Origin: Methylocapsa acidiphila B2
GTDB lineage: Bacteria; Pseudomonadota; Alphaproteobacteria; Rhizobiales; Beijerinckiaceae
Direction: 5' to 3'
Assembly: GCF_000427445.1 (NCBI RefSeq)
Contig: NZ_KE386496.1
Location: 310,001 to 374,000, forward strand
DNA length: 64,000 nucleotides
The notes beneath the pieces are model-generated. The model did not search any database. It worked only from the letters and a program-made list of their open reading frames with translations, and had not been told where the DNA came from. The position numbers and the translations under genes were made by a program. Positions 41,433 to 53,046 of the stretch are shown in pieces (the stretch's first letter is position 1; each line of letters begins with the position of its first letter).

Positions 41433-43229
41433 TCAGCGTAGCCCGAATCGCTGCTCCTGCTCCGCCCAATTGAAAGGCAGAGAACGAACGAGCCCGCTCA
41501 CGGTGACGCTGGCGGGAACATCGCCATTGGCGATTGCCGCGACGATGCGCGGCGACAGGAAGGCGAGCGGCGCCAGGAAGCGGATGTGGCGCACGACCTT
41601 CTGTTCACGTTCGGCGAGCTCTTCGAACGATTGAACGCGCCCGTCCATCAGATCGTTCATCCAGGATCTAGCCTTGGCGATCGCGGTCAGCAGAACGTCC
41701 CGATCTCGGGGATCGAGATCATGCGACCCAGGCAGATGGACGACTCCCTTTCGACGCCTTGCGACGGGTGGCGACCAAGGGATGCTGAGCAAACGTTCTG
41801 CGTCGGCGCCTCCAATCGATGGCTCGATGTCCGAGATATAGCTCTCTGCTTCTGACCTCTCGTTGTCTGAACGCGCCGCGCGCTTAGCGGTGCGGTCAGT
41901 AGACTGCTGTTTGAAGCAAGCCTCGGCTCGCAACGCATCGCCGTCGTCATCCCGCTTGTCGTTCAAGGTGATCTCGATCGCGCACGGGCGCAGAACGACG
42001 CGCGCGATGCAACGCGCGATCAGGTCACGATCGCTGTCCGGCGACGCTGCCGCGACCGTCGAGGCGCTTGTCTCTATCGTCGGTTGATCGCGCGAGCCCG
42101 CGTCGGCGTGTCGATTGACCGTGTGATCTGGCGCCTCGACGTCTCGCGCGGCGATCGCCCGACGGACAGAGTCGACGACGATCGCTTCAATATCCGGTCC
42201 GGATACGCGGGCGACGGATCCGACCTCTGCTCTTTGTTTTTGCAGAAGCGCCTGAGAGACGTAATAGCGATAGCGCACGCCTTTCTTATTGGCGTGGCTG
42301 GGGCTCATGGGATTGCCGCGATCGTCGAAGATCAGCCCTGTGAGCAAGGAAGCCGACTGCGTGCGGCGCATTTTTCGCCGCACGGCTTGGCCGGCGAGCT
42401 TTTCCTGAACCGCGTCGAACAGCTCTCGAGCGAGGATCGGCGCCTGCTCGCCCTTATGGACCTCGCCGCGATAGGCGACCTCGCCGATGTAGAAGCGGTT
42501 CTTCAGAATATGCGCCAAAGCTCCAACCATGAAGCGCGGGGCCGCGATGGTTCTGGCGCTGGCGAGCACCCGGGGCTTTGGCTTGACGCCTTCCGCTTCC
42601 AGCGCGGCGGCCAGGTCTTCGATCGAGCCGAGCCGGAGATAATCCGTAAAGATCTTGTGGACGAGATCAGCGTCTTCCGGCGCGACCTCGAGCTTCTTGC
42701 CGATACTGCGATAGCCGAGCGGCACAGGTCCCCCGACCCAGATCCCATTGCGCTTGGAGGCCGCGATCTTGTCGCGCACCCGCTCGCCGATTACCTCCCG
42801 CTCGAACTGGGCGAAGGAGAGCAGGACATTGAGCGTTAGCCGTCCCATGCTCGAGGTCGTGTTGAAGGACTGCGTGACCGAGACGAAGGAGACCTCGTGA
42901 TCGTCGAAGATCTCCATCAGCTTGGCGAAGTCGGCGAGCGACCGGGTCAAGCGGTCGACTTTGTAGACGACGATAATATCGATGTTGCGGGCTCGGACAT
43001 GTTCCAGCAGGGCCTGCAGGGCAGGGCGCTCCAATGAGGCGCCGGAGAGGCCGCCGTCGTCATAGCGTTCCGGAGAGAGTCGCCAGCCTTCATGCGCCTG
43101 GCTCTTGATATAGGCCTCGCAGGCCTCGCGCTGGGCGTCGAGGGAGTTGAAGGCGAGATCGAGATTATGCTCGGTGGATTTGCGCGTGTAGATCGCGCAG
43201 CGCTGAGGTTTTGGGGTTGGCGCCTTCAT
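41433..43229 (-). CDS. Large serine recombinase
   Basis: A 598-residue site-specific recombinase. The resolvase domain has the nucleophile Ser18 in YTRKSTEHN, the YDDGGLSGASLERPAL and VYKVDRLTRSLADF motifs, and SFAQFEREVIGERVRDKI; a Recombinase domain follows (GYRSIGKKLEVAPEDADLVHKIF). The usual Cys4 zinc ribbon is absent: its position reads LIFDDRGNPMSPSHANKKG without cysteines. The long C-terminal part after residue 400 is of unknown role. It overlaps the DUF2924 gene by 4 bp. Such enzymes integrate, excise or invert DNA segments. Confidence 0.93.
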   Translation of the reverse strand: MKAPTPKPQRCAIYTRKSTEHNLDLAFNSLDAQREACEAYIKSQAHEGWRLSPERYDDGGLSGASLERPALQALLEHVRARNIDIIVVYKVDRLTRSLADFAKLMEIFDDHEVSFVSVTQSFNTTSSMGRLTLNVLLSFAQFEREVIGERVRDKIAASKRNGIWVGGPVPLGYRSIGKKLEVAPEDADLVHKIFTDYLRLGSIEDLAAALEAEGVKPKPRVLASARTIAAPRFMVGALAHILKNRFYIGEVAYRGEVHKGEQAPILARELFDAVQEKLAGQAVRRKMRRTQSASLLTGLIFDDRGNPMSPSHANKKGVRYRYYVSQALLQKQRAEVGSVARVSGPDIEAIVVDSVRRAIAARDVEAPDHTVNRHADAGSRDQPTIETSASTVAAASPDSDRDLIARCIARVVLRPCAIEITLNDKRDDDGDALRAEACFKQQSTDRTAKRAARSDNERSEAESYISDIEPSIGGADAERLLSIPWSPPVARRRKGVVHLPGSHDLDPRDRDVLLTAIAKARSWMNDLMDGRVQSFEELAEREQKVVRHIRFLAPLAFLSPRIVAAIANGDVPASVTVSGLVRSLPFNWAEQEQRFGLR

Positions 43230-43810
43230 CCGCGATCTCCCGAAGCCCTCAAACCCGACGCTTCTTTGGATCGCGGTCGGACCGCGCCGCGGCTTGATCG
43301 CTTTCCTCTCGTCGTCCTAATTTGCTGCTCTGCATACGGTCCGGCCTGCGTCCGCTCGTTTGGCCCGCGTAGGCCAAAGAACCGCGGTCCGTTCCAGCTC
43401 GTGCCCGTGATCTTCCGAGCGATGGCGGATAGGCTGGGATAGACCTGCCCCGACCAATAGAACCCGCCGGGCGCGACCATGATCTCGTGGATCTTGCCTT
43501 CATGCTCGCGAACAATGATCGAGCCGATCTTCAGATGGCGAACCGGCTCGGTCCCTGGCTTCGCCAGCGACGTGAGAAGCCGGCGCAGCTGCGGATCAAG
43601 TCCGCCCAGGCTCTGCTCCTGGAGTCGATAAGCGAGGGCGCGGGCGATGAGGCCTTTGGATAGAGCATCCGGCGCGGGACGCCCCATCGTCTCGCGCCAG
43701 AGCGCACGCAACCTCTCGACGTTCATCGCCGGGATGCGATCGATCTCGGCGACGAGGTTTTCGACAGCCGATTGTGACATCGGCCGTCGATCCGAAACAC
43801 GTGCGGCCAT
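43226..43810 (-). CDS. DUF2924 family protein
   Basis: A 194-residue basic protein. The N-terminal half (ALWRETMGRPAPDALSKGLIARALAYRLQE) is the DUF2924 signature. The C-terminal half contains GGFYWSGQVYPSLSAIARKITGTSWNGPRFFGL, a fold also seen in small DNA-associated proteins. The family is repeatedly found beside serine recombinases in alphaproteobacteria and may help recombination; no activity is proven. The start is uncertain (43810 or 43780). It overlaps the recombinase gene by 4 bp and follows DUF3489 after 4 bp. Confidence 0.82.
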   Translation of the reverse strand: MAARVSDRRPMSQSAVENLVAEIDRIPAMNVERLRALWRETMGRPAPDALSKGLIARALAYRLQEQSLGGLDPQLRRLLTSLAKPGTEPVRHLKIGSIIVREHEGKIHEIMVAPGGFYWSGQVYPSLSAIARKITGTSWNGPRFFGLRGPNERTQAGPYAEQQIRTTRGKRSSRGAVRPRSKEASGLRASGDRG

Positions 43811-43814
43811 CGCG

Positions 43815-44402
43815 TTAGGCCTCGATCGCCGCCGCCGGCTTTTCGACGATCCGATAGAGCGAACCCTTGGCCTCATCGCGGACCCGCTCGACGGCATATC
43901 CCCTCTTGCGCAGTCCGGTCAGCGCCGCCCGCGTCGTATGCGGCAACCAGCCTGTGGCCTTGATCAAGGCGTTGAGCGAAGCGCCATCATCCTTGGAGAG
44001 TATTTCGACGATCATGGCTTGCTTGGAGCCTTGGCGAGGGACGCCGTCGGTCGATCGCTGTTCCGGCTGCGAGGCAGCTCTGGCCTTCGGCGCCTTCCCG
44101 GCGGCGCTGGGCCGGGCCGACTTCAGAGCTGAACCACCGGAGGCCATCGCCTCGTCTTCGGCTCCGATCGCCTCGCGGCCAGCGCGCGTGATGACAAGGC
44201 TAAAGTTCTTTCCATCCGCTTCGCGCCAGATCGGCATTCCCGGCTTCGATCGAATCTCCCGCATGAGCTTGCGCGCGACGAGGCTCGCGCCAAGTTTCGC
44301 GGCTGCCGCCTTGCCCATCCCCTGCGGCGCAACGGCGACGCCATCGTCCCGGGCGGCGGCTTTCGAGAGCGCGATTAATTGATTATCTGTAAGCTTCGGC
44401 AT
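43815..44402 (-). CDS. DUF3489 family winged-helix-like protein
   Basis: A 195-residue protein. The N-terminus (LTDNQLIALSKAAARDDGVAV) and the C-terminal GSKQAMIVEILSKDDGASL, TGWLPHTTRAALTGLRKRGY match DUF3489, whose C-terminal region looks like a winged-helix DNA-binding domain. A linker rich in Ala, Pro and Lys joins the two. It is the first gene of an operon with DUF2924 and the serine recombinase and may regulate it or assist strand exchange. Its start codon lies in an unusual hairpin-prone leader. Confidence 0.82.
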   Translation of the reverse strand: MPKLTDNQLIALSKAAARDDGVAVAPQGMGKAAAAKLGASLVARKLMREIRSKPGMPIWREADGKNFSLVITRAGREAIGAEDEAMASGGSALKSARPSAAGKAPKARAASQPEQRSTDGVPRQGSKQAMIVEILSKDDGASLNALIKATGWLPHTTRAALTGLRKRGYAVERVRDEAKGSLYRIVEKPAAAIEA

Positions 44403-44438
44403 GCTGTCCTCCTTCGCCAATGACAGCATCCGCTGTCA
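44401..44438 (-). promoter_or_regulatory. Two alternative hairpins in the DUF3489 leader
   Basis: Read on the minus strand, UGACAGC pairs with GCUGUCA (loop GGAU), giving an upstream hairpin (44421-44438). The downstream part of it, AUGCUGUC, can instead pair with GACAGCAU (44401-44408), which contains the start codon; the Shine-Dalgarno AAGGAG then lies in the loop. The two stems share a strand and cannot form together. This looks like a translational switch, or the repeats are three half-sites of a DNA-binding repressor. Confidence 0.5.
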
Positions 44439-44633
44439 CCGACGCGACCCCGCCAGTGGCCAAAAGCCGGCAGGGTGAAGGAGGTTGGCGCGTTATAAAC
44501 CGCCCGGGTCGTCGCCTGACGACGCCTAGCAATGCTCCGTTCGGCGCCGAAGTCCAGTCGCAAAGCGAGTCGTTTGGCCCGCGCTGCGCGCAAAGGTACC
44601 GCGGCAAGATCGCGATTCAATCTTTAATGCAGC

Positions 44634-44711
44634 TGTCGGTTTTGCTTAAGAACTTCAATTTGAATCGCTTAGTTAAAAACGCCGTGCTCGATTTTGCCTT
44701 AGCGATTCACC
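44634..44711 (+). repeat. Left terminal inverted repeat and inner copy
   Basis: The terminal copy (44634-44659) starts TGTCGG and ends in AACTTCAAT. A second, weaker copy (TTTTGCCTTAGCGATTCA, 44692-44709) has the same orientation. Between them is an inverted repeat, TGAATCGCTTAG (44661-44672) against CTTAGCGATTCA (44698-44709), with one mismatch. These are likely TniA binding sites. Confidence 0.75.
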
Positions 44712-44753
44712 TGCAATCTTAGTTTTATATTGAATTCATTCATCTTTTTAGCC

Positions 44754-45938
44754 TCATAGTCCTGCGGCCTTGGTGAGATTGACGCGGAATTTGTCCCGCC
44801 GCCGCTGGTAGCGCCGCGTCATCTCGGCCGAGGCGTGGCCGAGCTGCTTTTGGACATAGCGCTCATCGACCTCGGCGGAACTGGCGAGCCCGGCGCGCAA
44901 CGAATGGCCGGCGAACTTGCGCTTGCGCTCGCCTTCGCTGAGGTCGCCGCGAACGCCAGCGGCGAGCGCGGTCTTCTGCACCAGCCGCGCGACATGCTTG
45001 TCGATCAGGCGGTCGGCGGCGACTTTGGTCCCGCCGACCCGGCGGAAGAGGGGGCCATGGCTGATCCGGGCGAACTTGAGCCAGAGTTCAATGGCTGCGA
45101 CGGGGCAGGTCGCCTCGGACGAGCCGCGGCCGATCTCGACCTCGCGCCAGCCGGTCTTCCCCTTGACCTGAACCAGCGCGCCCTTGGCCTCGATCGCGAC
45201 AAACCCGCAGCCGTCTTCGGTCTGCCCCGGCCCGCAGTCCAGGCCGACGATCTCGCTGCGCCGCAAACCGCCGGCGAAGCCGAAGAGGAGAATGGCGCGA
45301 TCGCGCAGGCCGCGCAGGCTATGATCGAGCGTCGCCAGCATGGCCAGCAGATCCTCGGCCAGCACCGCCTCCTTCTGCTCCGGCGGGCGGCCATGCTTGC
45401 GGCGGATCCCGGCCATGACCTCGGCGATATGCCGGTCGCTCCGGTCGAGTTTTTGGCCGCGCTGGGCGAACTGCCAGGCGAGCGCCGACAGGCGCCGCTC
45501 GATCGACCGTACGGACAGCGGTTCGCCGCGCGCGCCCATGCCGCGCTCGGAGGCGCAGGCGGCGAGATAGAGGCCGATAACTTGCGGGTCCGGGGGCAGG
45601 GGAGCAAAGCCCCGGCGGCGGCTCCAGCCGGCGTAATGGCGCCAGTCGGCGGCATAGGCGCGGTTGGTGTTGTCCGCCTTGGCGCCGCGAGCGTAGTCTT
45701 TCGCGGTCTCGGCGAGACGTTCGAGGCCAACCGGCAGGCGCGCCGATGTTTCGGACGCGCGCGCCAAGTCCTGGCTCAAGTCCCCGGCCAAGTCCTGGGC
45801 CTCCGGCGGGCGGGCTTCGGGGCCGGCCTGCGGCCCAGAAGGCTCGTCCTGGGGCGATTTTTCCGTCATTTCGGCTGGTTTTCCGTCATTTTGGGCGCGT
45901 TTTCTTTCGCCCCGAATCAGTGTCCGATAATTGAACAT
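44754..45938 (-). CDS. Tyrosine recombinase
   Basis: A 394-residue site-specific recombinase. Residues 70 to 190 form a SAM-like core-binding domain (DNTNRAYAADWRHYAGW). The catalytic domain has Arg226 (GGLRRSEIVGL), His345-x-x-Arg348 (HSLRAGL), His368 (LGHASAEMT) and nucleophile Tyr377 (TRRYQRR). The N-terminal 65 residues are polar and Pro-rich. It is inside the transposon, where tniR (serine resolvase) is expected in Tn5053 relatives, so cointegrate resolution is a plausible job. An 11-5-11 inverted repeat covers its start codon. The gene is divergent from DUF1403, 84 bp apart. Confidence 0.92.
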   Translation of the reverse strand: MFNYRTLIRGERKRAQNDGKPAEMTEKSPQDEPSGPQAGPEARPPEAQDLAGDLSQDLARASETSARLPVGLERLAETAKDYARGAKADNTNRAYAADWRHYAGWSRRRGFAPLPPDPQVIGLYLAACASERGMGARGEPLSVRSIERRLSALAWQFAQRGQKLDRSDRHIAEVMAGIRRKHGRPPEQKEAVLAEDLLAMLATLDHSLRGLRDRAILLFGFAGGLRRSEIVGLDCGPGQTEDGCGFVAIEAKGALVQVKGKTGWREVEIGRGSSEATCPVAAIELWLKFARISHGPLFRRVGGTKVAADRLIDKHVARLVQKTALAAGVRGDLSEGERKRKFAGHSLRAGLASSAEVDERYVQKQLGHASAEMTRRYQRRRDKFRVNLTKAAGL

Positions 45939-45947
45939 TATCGGACA
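45921..45947. promoter_or_regulatory. Perfect 11-bp inverted repeat over the recombinase start
   Basis: TGTCCGATAAT (45921-45931), spacer TGAAC, then ATTATCGGACA (45937-45947). Arm length and spacer resemble tyrosine-recombinase core sites (11-bp arms, 6-8 bp spacer). The start codon of the recombinase falls at 45936-45938, across the spacer and right arm. It could be the recombination core, an autoregulatory operator, or both. Confidence 0.6.
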
Positions 45948-46022
45948 TTAAATGCTGTCGACAAGCCCGGCGGTTAACATCAAATAGAGCTGACAAAGCG
46001 CCGCCATGGCTTAAGATCGCGC

Positions 46023-47237
46023 ATGGCCCGAATCGATCCCATTCCCTCCCTTTCCGCACCCGAGCCCGCCGCCGAGCCTTCCCACGAGGCTTCGTTTTCC
46101 AGCCGTCGGCGCCCCCGCTCTGCACATGAACCAGCTGCCGAGCCCCGTATCGAACTGACCGATCGAGCTTTTCCAGGATGGGCGAGGAGTTTTGCGAGCC
46201 AAAACTCCGAGGGGAGGCTGGGCCAAGGCTCCGCTCGGCGAAGCCAAGGGGAAGGACCAGTCGAGGGGCACGCGGCGTCCCGGCCCGACCATCGAAACAC
46301 ATCGGATCTATCCGATGTGCCATTTGGCCATGACGCTTCGCTCGATGCGGCTTTTTCCGCCGGCGCCGGCCTCGCTCTCTTCGACGCCGCTCTGGCGACG
46401 CGACCGCATATTTCCGGCGTCCTGCGGCAGCGTCTGGCGCTGCGCGCCGGCGTCGCTTGCGCCGCGATGATGCGGATGCGCGAGGACGAGCGCGCCTTGC
46501 GGGACGCCCAGCATTTCATCAAGGCCGGCGCCGACCCTGGCCCGGCCGGGCGCCTCCACCGGCTGTGGCGGCTCTTCGCGGCGCGGCGGGCGCGGATCGA
46601 CGGCAAAGCTCTGCGCGCCGCGGCCGATCTCCTGGGCCTCGATGCGCCGGCCTCGATCCAAAGCGTCGATCTCGACCGCCTCGTCGCCGCGCTCGACAGC
46701 GTCGCGAAAGACCACCCTAATCCCATCGTCGCGGCGGCCCTGTCGGGATCCGCCACGCTGCAAGCGCTGCCAAATGCGGCGCGCGGCGAGGCCGAAATTC
46801 TGGCGCTATGGGTCGCAGATTTGGCGCTGGCGAATCGACTCGGCTGGGATCGGCCGGTTCCGCTCATCGCCGCGTCGATCCTGCATCCGTCGCTGCGCGC
46901 CAAGTCGAGCAGAAAACGGCCGCAGCCAGATGATCAAGATTGGCTGTCAAGCTGCGCCAAAGCCTACGCCCGCGCCAGCGCAGAGGCTTATGATCTCGCC
47001 AGTGATCTCGCTCGGCGATCCGCAAAACTGCGCTTGGCCGCCTTGAGCCTGCGCGCCAAAGGCGCCGGCCGGGCCGTCGAATTGTTGCTCACTGACGACG
47101 TGGTTGCGCCGGCGATGGCGGCGATGGCGGCCGGATTGTCGGATCGCGCGAGCCGTCGCCTATTCGATCGCCTCATCGAACTCGGCGCCGTGCGCGAACT
47201 TTCGGGTCGGCCGAGCTTTCGGCTCTATGGCCTATAG
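46023..47237 (+). CDS. DUF1403 family protein
   Basis: A 404-residue, largely helical protein of the DUF1403 family, recognised by the N-terminal FPGWARS, the repeated Ala-rich helices (AAFSAGAGLALFDAAL, RQRLALRAGVACAAMMRMREDERALRD) and the C-terminal winged-helix-like LSDRASRRLFDRLIELGAVRELS. Function unknown. About 70 residues near the N-terminus are low complexity. The gene is divergent from the tyrosine recombinase and 63 bp upstream of the ScpB-like gene, with which it likely forms an operon; the trio forms the non-transposase part of the element. Confidence 0.82.
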   Translation: MARIDPIPSLSAPEPAAEPSHEASFSSRRRPRSAHEPAAEPRIELTDRAFPGWARSFASQNSEGRLGQGSARRSQGEGPVEGHAASRPDHRNTSDLSDVPFGHDASLDAAFSAGAGLALFDAALATRPHISGVLRQRLALRAGVACAAMMRMREDERALRDAQHFIKAGADPGPAGRLHRLWRLFAARRARIDGKALRAAADLLGLDAPASIQSVDLDRLVAALDSVAKDHPNPIVAAALSGSATLQALPNAARGEAEILALWVADLALANRLGWDRPVPLIAASILHPSLRAKSSRKRPQPDDQDWLSSCAKAYARASAEAYDLASDLARRSAKLRLAALSLRAKGAGRAVELLLTDDVVAPAMAAMAAGLSDRASRRLFDRLIELGAVRELSGRPSFRLYGL

Positions 47238-47300
47238 CGTTTTCGAGCGAAGCGGGGGCCCTTTGCGTCAAGACGCCGCGGCAAGACAAGGAGTGAGGGC

Positions 47301-47987
47301 ATGAGCCGCCGGAAAAAACGCGAGGCGCGGCCGCTCTTCGATTCCGATCTCGCCGAACTGCCGGAGGGCGCGCGCTGGCGCGAATGGATGGGACGGGTCG
47401 AGGCGGCGATTTTCGCTTCGGCTTCGCCGGTGACGCGCGAGGCGTTGGCGCGGCTCGTCGGGCGGGAGTGCAATCTCGACGATCTCCTCGACGACATCGC
47501 CGATGAATTGCGGAGCCGCCCCTACGAGCTCGCCGCCGTCGCCGGCGGCTATCAGTTGCGCACCAAGCCGCGCTACGCCGGCGCCATCCGCGCCTTGGGG
47601 AATGGGGCCACGGACGGCGGCTTGCCCGAGCTGACGCCGACCGAACTCTTTGCCGTAACCGCGATCGCCTATCTGCAACCCGCCACCCGCGCGGAGTTGT
47701 CGCGGCTCGCCGGCAGGGAGGTCAGCCGCGACGTCATCGCCCGCCTCAAACGCCTCGACTTGATCGCCGCGGGGCCGCGCGCGCCCGAACCCGGCGCGCC
47801 TTACGCCTATGTCACGACGCGGCAATTCCTCAGCGTCTTCGGATTGGCGAGCTTGCGCGATCTTCCCGACATCGAGCGGTTGGAGGACGCCGGCTTGCTT
47901 GACCCGGTCCCTCCCGCCGTCGACCTCGACGGAGTCTTGGGTCTCGGCGAAGAGGACGCGGCGTTCGAAGACGAAGCGGATGACTAG
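47301..47987 (+). CDS. ScpB-like winged-helix protein
   Basis: A 228-residue protein resembling ScpB, the winged-helix partner of kleisin ScpA in the Smc chromosome-condensing complex. ScpB-like features are VEAAIFASASPVTREALARLVG, YELAAVAGGYQLRTKPRY, LTPTELFAVTAIAYLQPATRAELSRLAG and APYAYVTTRQFLSVFGL. No scpA or smc is nearby, and the housekeeping scpB should lie elsewhere, so this is a transposon-borne paralogue, probably a DNA-binding accessory factor. The stop codon shares CTAG with the stop of the convergent tniQ. Confidence 0.85.
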   Translation: MSRRKKREARPLFDSDLAELPEGARWREWMGRVEAAIFASASPVTREALARLVGRECNLDDLLDDIADELRSRPYELAAVAGGYQLRTKPRYAGAIRALGNGATDGGLPELTPTELFAVTAIAYLQPATRAELSRLAGREVSRDVIARLKRLDLIAAGPRAPEPGAPYAYVTTRQFLSVFGLASLRDLPDIERLEDAGLLDPVPPAVDLDGVLGLGEEDAAFEDEADD

Positions 47988-49060
47988 GCTTTCGAGCGGG
48001 CGGCTTGCTTGTCCAAAAGGCGGCGCCGCGCATGGACGGCGCCATAGGCCGCCAGCAACGATGTCAATTCGGCCGCGGGTGCGCCGGCTGCGCGCTTGCG
48101 ACTCCTCGGCGCCGGCTCGTCGTCGATGTCGAGGCGGCGCGCCAGCCGGCGCACCAAAGGTTGCAGGCTCGCGTCGATTCCGCCAGCTGTGACGATGGTC
48201 CGGCGCCAGGCGGCGATTATGGGATCGGGATCGGCCCAAAAATGCCTGCGCAATCGTTGGTCGAAGCCGGGCTCGATTCGCGTGAGGCAGCGGAGTCGCT
48301 CGGCCGTCGACAGTTTCGAAAATTTCTGATCGCACGGCGGATCTTGCAGAGAGGGCAGGGCGAGGAGCCGCTCGGTCAGCGCGCTCCTCCCCAAGAAGCC
48401 TTTCGCCGCCTCGATGCGGACCAGATCGTCGATCAGCTCCGCCGCTTGGCGCGTCGCCGCCGCGAGTTTGGGAGCCTGGGCCCGGCGAAGATCGAATCCG
48501 CAGACGGAGCATTGGAATTGGGGAGCGAGAGCGCGTTGGTTGAAGGGCGCGAGACCTTGGCGGCAAGCCGGACAGCGATCGATCAAGCGCCGGCCATGAC
48601 GTCGGCAGGTCATGACGCTGGCGCGCCGCCAGGCCCGCCGGAAATAAGCCGCCTCGTCGTCGGCGAGGCACTCCGGGCAGAATTGCAGCCACGTCGCGCA
48701 CATTTGGCCGGCCCGGTCCAAACCGACGGAATGGCGGAGCGGCAGAAGCAAGGGCCGCCAATCTCGGCCTCCGATTGTCATCGCCGCGATCCTATCGCGG
48801 CAAACGCCGGTTTGACGATGCAACAGGTTCAGGAGGGTCGCCGGCGCCTCGAGATCGAGCCGCGCCGACCAAGCGCCGGCGCCGAACCCGAGGCAGTCCC
48901 CAAAATGGCGCGGCGACAGGCCATGGGCGAGAGCGAGACGATGCTGCCAGCTCGAGAGCAGCTCGTCTTGCGCCGGGACCACCTCCGCCGGCCAGCGTTC
49001 GGGCACCAGGGTCGCGAGCCGCGGCTGCACTTCGATCGCGGGGCCGCCATGTTTGGGCAA
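47984..49060 (-). CDS. tniQ: TniQ family transposition protein
   Basis: TniQ proteins help choose the target of Tn7- and Tn5053-type transposons. This product has the typical N-terminus (LLSSWQHRLALAHGLSPRHFGDCLG), the Cys-rich zinc segment (FCPECL, then CRRHGRRLIDRCPACRQGL, and CSVCGFDL) and a C-terminal helical part. I placed the start at a TTG (49060) just after tniB; the frame is open upstream to 49195, but that would overlap tniB by 128 bp. It is the last gene of tniA-tniB-tniQ. Confidence 0.9.
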   Translation of the reverse strand: MPKHGGPAIEVQPRLATLVPERWPAEVVPAQDELLSSWQHRLALAHGLSPRHFGDCLGFGAGAWSARLDLEAPATLLNLLHRQTGVCRDRIAAMTIGGRDWRPLLLPLRHSVGLDRAGQMCATWLQFCPECLADDEAAYFRRAWRRASVMTCRRHGRRLIDRCPACRQGLAPFNQRALAPQFQCSVCGFDLRRAQAPKLAAATRQAAELIDDLVRIEAAKGFLGRSALTERLLALPSLQDPPCDQKFSKLSTAERLRCLTRIEPGFDQRLRRHFWADPDPIIAAWRRTIVTAGGIDASLQPLVRRLARRLDIDDEPAPRSRKRAAGAPAAELTSLLAAYGAVHARRRLLDKQAARSKA

Positions 49061-49067
49061 CGGCGGC

Positions 49068-49955
49068 CTATAGCAAGTCTTGGCGCAGCGGCGCCCTGCG
49101 GCGCTCGGACAGCGGCGTGTAACAAAGCGCGGATAGCGTTCGCGGCGTGATCCTCTCGGCGCCGTCATGGATCGCCAGTATGGCGGCGTCGACAAGAATG
49201 CGGACCGTCTCGCCGATCAGCCCTTCGGACAGGCCAAACACGCGCCGGGCGAGAGCTTCATCCGACAGATTGGATGGACGCGCGAGCGGCAGCGCCGCCT
49301 CCAGCGTGTCGAGCAGCGCCAGATAGGGCTCGCCATAACGCCAGCGCGGCACGGGCAGGGCCTGCAGCCGGCTCGCCATCTCCTGCGTGGCGTTGACGTG
49401 ATCATAGACGGCGACCTCGCCGATCAGCACTGGCGACACGTCGTATTCCCGGCCGAGGCGCCTCAGAAACGCGAAAATCGCCTCGACGTCGCGCGAACGG
49501 CCGCGCAAGGCATTGTGGAATTCATCGAAGATCAGGACGCGGGGCTGCAATTGCTGGAGCAGCGCGTCGACCTGTTCGGCCAGTCTCGAAACCGAGCGAA
49601 CGGCGGCAGCCGGCGCGCCGAAGCCTGCAATGACGCTCGCATAGAAATGCGCCAGGCCTGTTCCCTCGCGGGTCTGTAAAATCCATGCCTTGCGTTTGGG
49701 CGCGGACCCGAGGTGTTGCAGCACGAAACGCTCGGCGATCATCGTCTTGCCATTGGCGTAGGGGCCGACCAGCATCAATCCCTCGGTGCGCAGCGACGCC
49801 GGCCGCTCCAGCAACTCCTGGAGCCTCCGATGCGCGGCGAGCGCGGCGTCCGTGCCGATCCAGCGCGGCGCGCGGATGAAGGCGATGCGTTCCGTCGGCG
49901 GCGCCGCCAAGAGGGGCCGAATATGGTCGAAAAGATGCTCGGCCACCCGCGTCAC
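49068..49955 (-). CDS. tniB: TniB-type AAA+ ATPase for transposition
   Basis: A 295-residue AAA+ ATPase of the TniB/TnsC group, which binds target DNA and switches the transposase on. The Walker A motif is GPYANGKT (residues 64-71), Walker B is VLIFDEFHN (Asp144, Glu145), and the arginine/sensor part SEGLIGETVRILVDAAILAI follows. The N-terminal RPLLAAPPTERIAFIRAPRW is typical of TniB. It overlaps tniA by 4 bp and precedes tniQ. Confidence 0.93.
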   Translation of the reverse strand: MTRVAEHLFDHIRPLLAAPPTERIAFIRAPRWIGTDAALAAHRRLQELLERPASLRTEGLMLVGPYANGKTMIAERFVLQHLGSAPKRKAWILQTREGTGLAHFYASVIAGFGAPAAAVRSVSRLAEQVDALLQQLQPRVLIFDEFHNALRGRSRDVEAIFAFLRRLGREYDVSPVLIGEVAVYDHVNATQEMASRLQALPVPRWRYGEPYLALLDTLEAALPLARPSNLSDEALARRVFGLSEGLIGETVRILVDAAILAIHDGAERITPRTLSALCYTPLSERRRAPLRQDLL

Positions 49956-51709
49956 CAGTTCTCGATCGGCAACAGCTTCTTGGACCGGACGGGATGGGGC
50001 GCGGCCGGCGCGCCTGCCGGCTCCAGGGATTGATGCGGCTTTGCGGCCTCGGCCGCTTTGGCCGAGCGGACGGCGTCGCGAAGTTCGCCTTTTGAAGAAC
50101 GGGGGGCTTGCGTCCTGGTCGTTCGCGCGGTCGTCACGATCGCGCCGATCTCGCGCGATATCGCGACCTTTTCGGTCGCCGAGCGGGCTTGCGCCGCCCG
50201 TTGTTCGCGGCGATCACGCAGATGCTCCCATAAGGTGAGCGGCGTGGTTGCCCCGTCGCGCCGCGCCGCCACGCGGAACGTATTGTCGCCGGGATCGCGC
50301 ACATAGATGCGGCTGATGTCGCGCGGATCGTATCTGATCTCCAATTTGTCAATTCGGTCGCGTTCAGGGACGAGAACGCCGAGCCAGGGCGCATAATAAT
50401 GCAGTGCAAACAACTCGACGCCCTGTGGCGTCAGCCGTCGCTGCGCGCCTGGCAGGAAATTGAGCAGCACGGCGTCGGGAGCGTCGGCGCCGCCCGGCAG
50501 ATCGGCGGCATGGGCGCGCCATTCGGCGAGTGGAACCTTCAAGGTCTTCTCGTTCATCTGGCTGTTGTGATCGATGATGGCGAGCGCCACGCAGCGTTCG
50601 AGATCGGCGAAGGTCAGGCAGGCCCGCTTCTCCGATGGATAGCCGTCGCGATCCATGATCGAGCGGCCGGTGGCGCCGTCATGCGTCCCGATCACGCCGT
50701 TGAGCTTTCCGAGCAGACGCTCGACCACGCCGCCCTCGTGCACGCGGCCTCGATCGCGGCGCCGGATGGACACGCCATATTCCGCGCAACCTCTCTGGAA
50801 CGCCTTTCCGCGGAACTCCTTTGCCGAATCCGTGACGATTTGTTTCGGACGTCCGAAGGTCGGCCAATCATGCTCGATGCCGCGCGATTCGAGCCACGCC
50901 GCCTTCGGGCAGATGGCGTGGGCGAGGCACAACGCGACCGATAGCGTGCTCGGGGCCTCCAACGTCAGACAAAATCCCAGAACGCAGCGCGAGAAGACAT
51001 CGACCAAAATGGTCAGATAGGCGCGGCCGACGAAGGCGCCCGCGCCGTCGATCACCTCGACGAACTGGATGTCGGTCGGCGTGTGGTCGATTTGCGTCAC
51101 GGCGAGCGGTCCGGGCGCGCTGATATAGCCGGGTCGTGGCCTGAGCCGCCGCAGATGGTTCGGATTGGCCGAGCGCCGCTTGGCGATTTCCTCGGGCGTA
51201 AACAAGGCCGCGATGCGGCTGCGGACCGCCACATAGGATAGCGGCCATAAGCCTGCCGCTTCGCAGCGCGCCCGGATCTCGCCGACGACTGGAGCCAACG
51301 GCGGCGCCTCCAAAACCATCCATTTTTCTCGCAAAGTCGCAGCGATGATCGCCTCGACATTTTCGGCGAGCCTCTTGCTGCGGCCCGCGCCGCGGCGGGA
51401 GAGCAACGCCGAAACGGTCCGCTCGAGCCGATATTGCGCAAGCAGCACGTAGATGCGCCGCGTCGAGACCCGGAGCTCCCCAGCGGCGCGGGCGATCGCC
51501 GCATTGCGGGGTCCTTCCCCGTCCAGCACTTTGTCCAGCTCGCGGGCGATCAGTTTGGCGTTCCGCCAATTCTCATCGGCAGCGGCGCTCGGAGCCTTCG
51601 CCGTGCTTTGGACGCGTGAATTGAAGCGCCGCAAAAAAGCCCCCGGAATTGAATCTCTTAAGCAAAATTGAAGTTTTAAATCAAAAACGCGGCCCTGATA
51701 ACACTCCAA
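49952..51709 (-). CDS. tniA: TniA-type DDE transposase
   Basis: The 585-residue transposase of the element. An N-terminal helix-turn-helix part (AAGELRVSTRRIYVLLAQYR) precedes an RNase-H-like domain with Asp208 (VTQIDHTPTD), Asp294 (IVTDSAKEF) and Glu330 (GGVVERLLGKLN), 35 residues after the second Asp. The C-terminal half resembles the Mu transposase C-terminal domain (ELFALHYYAPWLG). Its first 30 codons run through the repeats of the right end, so the true start may be the TTG at 51634. It is coupled to tniB by a 4-bp overlap. Confidence 0.93.
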   Translation of the reverse strand: MECYQGRVFDLKLQFCLRDSIPGAFLRRFNSRVQSTAKAPSAAADENWRNAKLIARELDKVLDGEGPRNAAIARAAGELRVSTRRIYVLLAQYRLERTVSALLSRRGAGRSKRLAENVEAIIAATLREKWMVLEAPPLAPVVGEIRARCEAAGLWPLSYVAVRSRIAALFTPEEIAKRRSANPNHLRRLRPRPGYISAPGPLAVTQIDHTPTDIQFVEVIDGAGAFVGRAYLTILVDVFSRCVLGFCLTLEAPSTLSVALCLAHAICPKAAWLESRGIEHDWPTFGRPKQIVTDSAKEFRGKAFQRGCAEYGVSIRRRDRGRVHEGGVVERLLGKLNGVIGTHDGATGRSIMDRDGYPSEKRACLTFADLERCVALAIIDHNSQMNEKTLKVPLAEWRAHAADLPGGADAPDAVLLNFLPGAQRRLTPQGVELFALHYYAPWLGVLVPERDRIDKLEIRYDPRDISRIYVRDPGDNTFRVAARRDGATTPLTLWEHLRDRREQRAAQARSATEKVAISREIGAIVTTARTTRTQAPRSSKGELRDAVRSAKAAEAAKPHQSLEPAGAPAAPHPVRSKKLLPIENW

Positions 51710-51762
51710 CCTGACGAAATCATTACGCTTTCGCTTGTTGAAGTTTTAAATCAAAACCGACA
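51620..51762 (-). repeat. Right end: four copies of the transposase-binding repeat
   Basis: Copies of the motif ATTGAAGTTTTAAATCAAAA, all in the same orientation, start at 51620, 51648, 51667 and 51737; the last one is the terminal inverted repeat (51737-51762). The match falls off toward the inside, but ATTGAA at the start and CAAAA at the end persist. This array of end sites is typical of Tn7-like right ends. Confidence 0.75.
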
Positions 51763-52292
51763 GCTGCGGGCTATCCCCCAAGACTTTTGTGGGACGCGCT
51801 AACCCGAAAATCCCCGTTGGGGTTTCGCCCGAGCCGGTCAATTCCAACAGGCCTATTTCCTTGGAAACACGCCGGTTTCTGGATGGAGATCGGCAATGCG
51901 ACCAGCGAGGGAGCTGCGGCTCGGCCCAGCCTAATCGCCCCACAAGCCGGCCAGCGTCTCCGACAGGGCAGGGGACCTTGATCCCATCCGTCCCTCACCG
52001 CCCGGCGCCCTTGGCTCGGAAACGTGGAGCCGGCGGAGGGCCCAAATTGAAGTCCCAAATAAAAATTGAAGTTCATAGTCAAAAAACAGGCTGCAATTTC
52101 GGCCTAACCTCATGGGAACATCAGGGTTTATGGAATTGCAGTCCTAAAGCAAAAGCCACAACTTGGTCGCGCCGCGCTCGGCCTCCGAGTTAGGTGACCG
52201 AACGCGGCTGTTATCGGGCCTGGGAATATTGAGAGCGTCGATAGAGCGTCCTTGCGGCAAGGAAACGGATTGTCCGCCAGGCATCGAACGAC
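51763..52292. repeat. Sequence outside the right end with three more end-type repeats
   Basis: No gene is recognised. Motif copies at 52046, 52065 and 52135 have the orientation of those in the right end. The outermost, 52135-52160, ends in GCAAAAGCCACA and agrees with the left terminus at 21 of 26 positions. They look like the end of a second, related element. A small hairpin, CCCC-GTT-GGGG with TTT after it (51812-51825), may be a terminator. Confidence 0.6.
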
Positions 52293-52694
52293 TTAGTTTT
52301 GCCGAGCTTTGCGCGCAGCATAGCGTTGATCGCGCGCCGCCTTGCGCGCGGCCTCGTCCGCGATCACGCGCGCGGCGAGCCCGGCCAGTCTCGCTCCCTT
52401 GGCTGCCTGTTCGGCGGCCGTGGCTTCCTCGGCTGCGATCCTCTCGGCTTCCAGGGCGGCTTCGCGTTCAGCCCTTTCGGCGGCCTCGCGGGCGAGCTGC
52501 TTACATGTGGCGGCGGCGCGCTGGGCCTCCCGGATTTTTCTCGCCTCGAGGATCGCCTTTCGCTCGGCTTCCCGAGCTAAAACTGCCGGATCGTCGGGCC
52601 CCGGTTTGGCTCGAAATTTAGTCAATCGCGCGGCGACAGCATTTACGGCGGCGCTCCGACGCTCAACAAAACCCTTTTCTCTAAAATTGCTCAA
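52293..52694 (-). CDS. DUF6481-like charged helical protein
   Basis: A 133-residue protein made almost entirely of Ala, Arg and Glu, predicted to form one long charged helix or coiled coil (AREAAERAEREAALEAERIA). The start NFREKGFVERRSAAVNAVAARL and PGPDDPAVLAREAERKAI match the family I know as DUF6481, common in alphaproteobacteria and without known function. The start is a TTG (52694) preceded by GAAGG. It is the first stable gene after the transposon and may be chromosomal. Confidence 0.7.
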   Translation of the reverse strand: MSNFREKGFVERRSAAVNAVAARLTKFRAKPGPDDPAVLAREAERKAILEARKIREAQRAAATCKQLAREAAERAEREAALEAERIAAEEATAAEQAAKGARLAGLAARVIADEAARKAARDQRYAARKARQN

Positions 52695-52818
52695 TGTTCG
52701 CCTTCTACTTTTGTCGTTGTGAGGGAGGGTCTAACATGTACCTCAAGACGCCAGGTTTCAACCGAAGTCAAAAGCTTCGCTTTGCCGCGATAGCGACCTC
52801 CCTCAGCAAAAGCGACAA

Positions 52819-53046
52819 TTACAGAGCGTAGGGGATGCGGACGCCAGGATCGCCGGATGGGAAATTCTTGACGTCGTGGGTGACCAAAAGCATGGCGCGA
52901 TCCCGCGCCGACGCCCAGATCACAGCATCGGGCAATTTGATCTTATGCCGCCGGCGCAGACCAACCGCCCGCGCGGCGATCCGCTCGTCGACGCCGATGA
53001 TCTCAAAGCCGCTCAGAAAATCGCGCGTGATATTTCCTGCGCTCAT
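52819..53046 (-). pseudogene. C-terminal remnant of a PIN-domain toxin (VapC-like)
   Basis: The 75 residues contain the C-terminal half of a PIN RNase: FEIIGVDERIAARAVGLRRR, then KLPDAVIWASARDRAMLLVTHDVKNF with the second and third acidic residues. The N-terminal part with the first Asp (usually in LLDTNV) is missing, because a TAA interrupts the frame seven codons upstream of the ATG. No antitoxin gene is adjacent. It is therefore a broken toxin, likely left by DNA exchange near the transposon. Confidence 0.75.

Follow-up and report, generated by a model that had tools for sequence, protein, structure and literature searches.

A TnsA-less tniABQ transposon of Methylocapsa acidiphila B2 with a tyrosine recombinase cassette that may serve cointegrate resolution

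The element, its genes and its ends

Here we describe a transposon of 7.13 kb at 44634-51762 of a 64,000-nucleotide stretch of DNA from Methylocapsa acidiphila B2 (this whole stretch is called the window below). The window sits on a 3.92-Mb contig of a genome that consists of two contigs (4.10 Mb), and the element carries, in this order, genes for a tyrosine recombinase (Int), a DUF1403 protein, an ScpB paralogue, TniQ, TniB, and TniA. The features of the element and its immediate flanks, in window positions, are as follows.

44629..44633, no strand: left flank GCAGC, an imperfect copy of the target duplication (4/5 with GCTGC at 51763-51767)
44634..44718, plus: left end, terminal repeat TGTCGG... 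followed by subterminal repeats
44754..45938, minus: Cre/Xer-like tyrosine recombinase, Int (Pfam PF00589, 8.7e-14)
45921..45947, no strand: candidate crossover (core) site TGTCCGATAA-TTGAACA-TTATCGGACA, a palindrome that straddles the annotated Int start
46023..47237, plus: DUF1403 protein (PF07183, 3.8e-71) with a C-terminal HTH_13-like domain (PF11972, 4.9e-5, under its cut-off)
47301..47987, plus: ScpB paralogue (PF04079, 1.8e-33)
47984..49195, minus: TniQ (PF06527, 9.2e-21)
49068..49955, minus: TniB AAA+ ATPase (PF05621, 1.5e-42)
49952..51709, minus: TniA transposase (Pfam Mu-transpos_C; rve narrowly under its cut-off)
51649..51762, minus: right end, repeats spaced 19 and 70 nt
51763..51767, no strand: right flank GCTGC, imperfect target duplication

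A sequence-only reading of this stretch had proposed terminal inverted repeats that bound the element at 44634 and 51762, the presence of TniA, TniB, and TniQ, the absence of TniR, and an Int with a complete active site, and all of these proposals held. TniA, TniB, and TniQ each have Pfam matches. The closest solved relatives of TniA are TnsB chains and its top PADLOC model is V-K TnsB; the transposase is of the rve/Mu-C type and is not a Tn3-family TnpA. None of the six proteins between the ends that were scanned with Pfam has a serine recombinase domain, as TniR would, and no TnsA was found among the proteins scanned. In Int the proposed residues Arg226, His345, Arg348, His368, and Tyr377 are invariant in 12 aligned sequences including that of the window, as is Lys261. 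The closest solved relatives of Int are P1 Cre chains, which accords with a symmetric site for one enzyme. As the annotated start at 45938 falls within the palindrome, the true start of Int is probably downstream of it.

The sequence-only reading mentioned neither DUF1403 nor ScpB, the palindromic site, or a second right end described below. The C terminus of DUF1403 holds a helix-turn-helix (HTH)-like domain that is related to that of the RHE_PE00001 family (hhalign probability 71, E 3.7e-5). A comparison with solved structures gave a match at chance level only, and a single-sequence fold model of residues 96-404 had a mean predicted local distance difference test (pLDDT) score of 39.5, too low to be interpreted. 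DUF1403 was found in none of the viral contigs searched; the search of these contigs with Int kept 80 of 93 loci, with a best identity of 38%. PADLOC gave a weak SoFic match for DUF1403.

The ends are clearly defined. The inverted repeat at 44629-44658 and 51738-51767 (30 nt, 90% complementary) is the top-listed pair in 44400-53000, where the longer inverted repeats listed are only 71-76% complementary. When the two 300-bp end regions were compared, the best 30-nt inverted match was 27/30, versus 17-20 in 15 shuffles. We also built end profiles from the ends of relatives (10 left and 19 right rows), leaving out the window and the relative on the organism's own plasmid, and searched the 64-kb window with them. 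The left-end profile matched exactly at 44634 (E 2.4e-8) and the right-end profile exactly at 51762 (E 1.1e-5). Both ends have the TGT...ACA terminal repeats and the subterminal repeats of the transposase type. The right-end profile matched once more at 52160 (E 2.3e-8), and the remaining three matches are on the minus strand, one inside the left end (E 0.0015) and two with E > 1. The additional right end is as follows.

52047..52160, minus: second right end, standing alone outside the element, with the 19/70 repeat spacing of the first

We considered 52160 as the true right end and rejected it, as in relatives tniA begins some 100 bp inward of the right end, in agreement with 51762. The second right end is 73% identical over about 210 bp to two loci of the same genus, where both kinds of end lie close together. 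It is probably the remnant of a related element or mini-element.

Relatives, the candidate site and the cassette on plasmids

The comparison covered 26 tniA loci, namely the window, 18 plasmid loci (L034-L039, L060-L071) chosen for diversity among the 60 matches listed of 4610 records, and seven others (L045, L047-L052), which were the best TniA matches of further genome searches, some of them on short contigs. Four more partial TniA matches of 61-73% (G134:C207, G222:C147, G231:C150, and G234:C121) lie outside this set. TniA relatives of 56-66% identity occur on many rhizobial plasmids, one of 79-80% is chromosomal (G123), and a search of broader genome contigs yielded one distant locus, from Acidobacteria. 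In 11 of the 26 loci (window, L036, L037, L038, L061, L062, L063, L066, L067, L069, and L071), TniQ is followed by ScpB, DUF1403, and Int, with an extra gene between TniQ and ScpB in L062 and L067 and others between DUF1403 and Int in L067 and L069. Several loci have broken tni genes, for example L034, L061, L067, and L069. Both ends could be located in nine of the elements that bear the cassette, and in all nine the ends enclose Int and its site, on the left-end side. Among these nine, the first four bases of L061 depart from the profile, and for L036 there are two right ends to choose from, so that the pairing of its ends is unsure. These two right ends of L036 (plasmid pRL10; 6553 and 9930) lie about 3.4 kb apart before a single tniA, which is another case of a doubled right end.

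The target duplication is perfect (5/5) in L063 and L071, both of which bear Int, and is 4/5 in the window, L050, and L062, so that 5 of 11 full-size elements have a duplication of at least 4/5. L037 has an 8-bp repeat at its flanks, and no clear duplication was seen in L036, L039, L061, L066, and L069. If copies of the element recombined at the internal site that they share, their flanks would be scrambled, and this could explain the poor duplications. Two mini-elements, of 360 bp (L117, 10893-11252) and 381 bp (L118, 7822-8202), consist of one right and one left end by profile match; their duplications are 2/5 and 0/5. In L051 (1513-1520), the left end of one element lies 6 bp from the right end of another, a tandem insertion.

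The candidate core site is located in the divergent region between Int and DUF1403. Inverted arms adjoining a recombinase gene are, at the level of sequence, what is found in Cre/Xer-type systems. With one mismatch allowed, CCGATAA-N7-TTATCGG occurs at two places in the organism's own 4.1-Mb genome, each beside an Int copy (in the window and at 50265 of contig C1), and the reversed control does not occur there. In the 26 loci (639 kb), CGATAA-Nk-TTATCG was found 18 times at k=7 and never at k=2-6 or 8-15; 23 further stretches gave 12 occurrences at k=7 and a single one at k=8, and the remaining 12 spacers did not occur. All these loci were picked for Int or tniA (a few for end-like DNA), and only the spacer lengths, not the presence of the site, serve as controls in these counts. 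The arms vary symmetrically (GTCCGATAA/TTATCGGAC, GAACGATAA/TTATCGTTC, GTCCGGTAA/TTACCGGAC, and AATGATAA/TTATCATT), and the central 7 bases are variable. A freer search of the gaps between Int and DUF1403 found a palindrome with arms of at least 9/10 in 30 of 32 gaps, compared to 7 of 32 after shuffling, although in about 5 of those 30 the best palindrome is a different one. The palindrome is present in all 11 tniA loci that bear the cassette. On these grounds Int, with its palindromic candidate site, is a plausible cointegrate resolvase.

The same arrangement of Int, site, DUF1403, and ScpB also stands free near repABC (L032 and L033). In an order-wide search, Int was found at E<=1e-80 in 18 of 397 genomes, the own genome included. 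Within the stretches fetched around the 19 Int loci outside the own genome, DUF1403 is present in 17, ScpB in 15, and rep genes in 12 (L101, with a RepA match of only 29%, is a possible 13th), and a close tniA in none. Of the 17 order-wide loci with DUF1403, 13 hold the palindrome in the gap between this gene and Int, with only 8/10 arm matches in L103 and L109; it was not seen there in L101, L102, L111, and L113. We built a tree of 34 Int sequences (11 from transposons, 2 from remnants, and 21 from plasmids, with the broken Int of L034 left out). The transposon label changes eight times in this tree, and well supported branches force at least five of these changes, which means that the cassette moved repeatedly between transposon and plasmid. 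The tree thus indicates that the cassette is repeatedly exchanged between plasmid backbone and transposon, and the Int of the element may plausibly have been drawn from an exchangeable pool of plasmid cassettes. The Int of the window groups with two copies from the same genus. One of these (L116, in G144) keeps fragments of TniQ and TniA. The other (L044, 8918-12192) lies beside repABC on contig C1 of the organism itself and comprises a left end, an Int of 82% identity, the site, DUF1403, and ScpB. The stretch fetched around L044 gave no match to tniABQ, and the 7-bp spacer of the L044 site is unlike that of the window.

In 3 of the 19 loci (L098, L105, and L113), a more distant Tni element (TniA 32-35%) separates the Int of a free-standing cassette from its DUF1403. 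In L056 a distant Tni element, also with a TniA of 32-35%, lies between the first-class site, as we call the site beside Int, and Int itself. In all four, the element sits in the recombination gap.

A second class of site has ATCGATAA-type arms and the same 7-bp spacer length. We found ten of these (L036, L039, L056, L061, L062, L071, L116, L117, L118, and L201). They do not adjoin DUF1403, and many are upstream of RHE_PE00001. Five loci (L036, L056, L062, L071, and L118) have a distantly related tyrosine recombinase (26-32% identity) no more than about 2 kb from the site. In L201 an annotated integrase is 2.4 kb away, and in L117 an Int of 44-66% identity is nearby; no tyrosine recombinase was seen near the sites of L039, L061, and L116.

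The insertion place of the relatives

The right end abuts the RHE_PE00001 (DUF1612) gene in 20 of the 26 loci. The junction is at the 5' codons of the gene in most of them and immediately ahead of its start in L038, and in L036 it is formed by the more tniA-distal of the two right ends. The other six right ends are those of the window, whose copy is not in RHE_PE00001, of L060, L061, and L066, of L051, which abuts another element, and of L047, where the contig ends. Uninterrupted copies of the gene (L200-L203) read straight through the insertion place. In the relatives, TniQ and TniB probably direct insertion to the 5' part of RHE_PE00001. We rejected the gene as a core part of the element, as it lies outside the right end in these 20 loci, though L039, L047, and L050 have a copy within the left end. 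RHE_PE00001 has been called essential in pRetCFN42e (PMC3898782), and DUF1612 is described as having a remote Fic-like N terminus (PMC2686095).

On the left side, 6 of 13 left ends checked (L036, L039, L062, L071, and the mini-elements L117 and L118) are 145-152 bp from a second-class site, with arms of 10/10 in four and of 7/10 in L036 and L117. The left end of L061 is 13 bp from such a site and that of L066 is 156 bp from a degenerate one, and near the left ends of L037, L050, L063, L069, and L051 there is no match or only a poor one. L037, L050, L061, and L063 carry serine recombinase genes past the left end. The window has the following genes on this side.

41433..44429, minus: flanking genes for DUF3489, DUF2924, and a large serine recombinase, outside the element

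The large serine recombinase is encoded at 41433-43229, outside the element ends, and the first start codon of this gene group is 205 bp from the left end of the window copy, a single case. We do not take the hunting of res sites as a proven targeting rule, because RHE_PE00001 codons read by TniQ may be the common factor. A counterpoint to this codon reading is provided by the two mini-elements, which lie 145 bp (L117) and 151 bp (L118) from a second-class site and have no recognised RHE_PE00001 codons in their flanks.

Possible roles of the Int cassette

We lean, with modest confidence, towards the view that this is a TnsA-less, Tn5053/Tn402-like element of the Tn7 superfamily, whose self-contained Int resolution cassette acts as cointegrate resolvase and is shared with repABC plasmids. 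TniA would most likely move the element by replicative joining, which would give a cointegrate with two copies of the element. Int would then recombine the two core sites and separate the replicons. The cassette adjoins the left end and comprises Int, the candidate core site in the divergent promoter region, DUF1403, and a dedicated ScpB; the last two may act as an accessory or topological filter. On repABC plasmids, the same cassette would most likely resolve plasmid multimers.

Tyrosine resolvases in TnsA-less Tn7-like transposons are reported in the relevant passages of Benler et al. (2021; PMC8649781), where resolution of the cointegrates is inferred to occur by the element's own serine or tyrosine resolvase, in trans, or by recA. 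The presence in our element of Int with its own candidate site fits the role inferred there. The suggestion of the sequence-only reading that this is a new modular type of Tni element therefore does not stand, as the general kind is already published. Like those elements, ours has no TnsA, a tyrosine recombinase within the ends, and an inferred cointegrate pathway; the candidate site, the cassette, the exchange with plasmids, and the target gene are what is described here. With Tn5053/Tn402, the res site hunters with tniABQR, the element shares TniA, TniB, TniQ, and the type of ends; 5-bp duplications are seen in some relatives, and relatives are often inserted near recombinase loci. It differs in that neither TniR nor res was found and a tyrosine recombinase with a palindromic site, DUF1403, and ScpB are present instead, and in that the relatives insert in or beside RHE_PE00001. 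A tyrosine recombinase in place of a serine resolvase is also known from Tn4430 (TnpI-IRS), whose transposase is of the Tn3 family and which has neither ScpB nor DUF1403. In P1 Cre-lox, as in other plasmid dimer resolution, a palindromic site serves one recombinase; the resemblance to Cre and the palindrome are shared, whereas the 10-7-10 site and the accessory ScpB and DUF1403 belong to the cassette described here. The matches listed in our search of the literature on TniQ/TniA with a tyrosine recombinase, res site hunters, Tn5053, repABC, and Xer held nothing on this cassette or target, and the term DUF1403 is in no paper of the literature searched. PMC10194956 mentions RinQ of Rhizobium etli and, for a plasmid of Sinorhizobium, a XerD recombinase close to repABC; the passages of two other papers (PMC8373256 and PMC3414803) are not on point.

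Several observations weigh against a resolvase role. The window copy is chromosomal and its target duplication is imperfect (GCAGC/GCTGC). The sequence-only reading called for empty target sites, and none was found for this copy: its two flanks, searched separately in 15 genomes of the same genus, never matched at one place. The gene order of tniABQ with the cassette is confined to 11 of the 26 tniA loci, the window included, and the other 15 lack the cassette as a unit beside tniABQ. Some of these stretches are truncated or broken, and four (L034, L048, L064, and L068) hold scattered parts of the cassette. L039, L047, and L050 have both ends located and carry RHE_PE00001 with no Int match (of the kinds of recombinase, L047 and L050 were checked for Int alone). 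L047 and L050 are elements of about 5 kb that consist of tniABQ and the RHE_PE00001 gene, and L039 is similar, with a helicase. That such elements have no Int, and that the cassette has moved about, speaks against Int being necessary. The transposon label shows hardly any clustering in the Int tree, where 107 of 500 shuffles gave a count of changes as low as the eight observed. The site is also found upstream of genes with an HTH_13-like domain, which would fit an operator too, and no recombination product was seen. What stands of the proposal that a tyrosine recombinase takes the place of the resolvase is thus a bounded tniABQ element in which no TniR was found, with a complete Int at its left end and a crossover-like site; set against it are the loci without the cassette and the cassettes that stand alone near repABC.

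As the Int cassette also occurs alone near repABC, plasmid multimer resolution would be an equally natural job for it. It is possible, though we rather doubt it, that the cassette is passenger cargo that was acquired near repABC, keeps the host plasmid monomeric, and has no role in transposition. The free-standing cassettes, the intermixed Int tree, and the tniA loci that lack the cassette would all be expected for a passenger, but wherever the cassette is present, it lies on the TniQ side and its genes keep one order and one direction, which free capture would not predict.

An improbable alternative is that the palindrome at 45921-45947 serves not as a crossover site but as an operator, to which the HTH domain of DUF1403, or Int as a repressor, would bind. 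Its position in a divergent promoter region and the HTH_13-like C terminus of DUF1403 agree with this. The second-class sites argue less strongly against an operator than they might, because many of them are upstream of RHE_PE00001, whose C terminus is related to that of DUF1403. On the other hand, the 7-bp spacer is constant in length and variable in letters, and around the second-class sites of L056 and L118 the stretch contains no DUF1403 or RHE_PE00001 but does contain a distant tyrosine recombinase close by, which speaks for a recombinase site. That Int selects the target, as the inactivated tyrosine recombinase TnsF of the Tn7-like Tn6022 selects comM according to PMC10293859 (TnsF/Tsy), is very unlikely, since Int retains its catalytic residues and seven loci with no Int beside tniABQ (L034, L035, L039, L064, L065, L068, and L070) abut the same place in RHE_PE00001.

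These results supply a concrete candidate site and cassette for the TnsA-less Tn7-like transposons with a tyrosine resolvase. They also tie such transposons to a plasmid cassette that includes an accessory protein of the SMC type, and indicate RHE_PE00001 as a shared insertion place for this transposon family on large alphaproteobacterial plasmids. Tentatively, Int, the core site, DUF1403, and the dedicated ScpB might be a condensin-linked machine for multimer resolution of repABC plasmids, with ScpB and DUF1403 as its topological filter, that a branch of Tni elements adopted as cointegrate resolvase. The insertions of this branch would be directed to another recombination locus of the same plasmids, RHE_PE00001 with a serine or tyrosine recombinase. 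If this were true, these Tni elements would hunt the resolution loci of plasmids and exchange resolution cassettes with their hosts.

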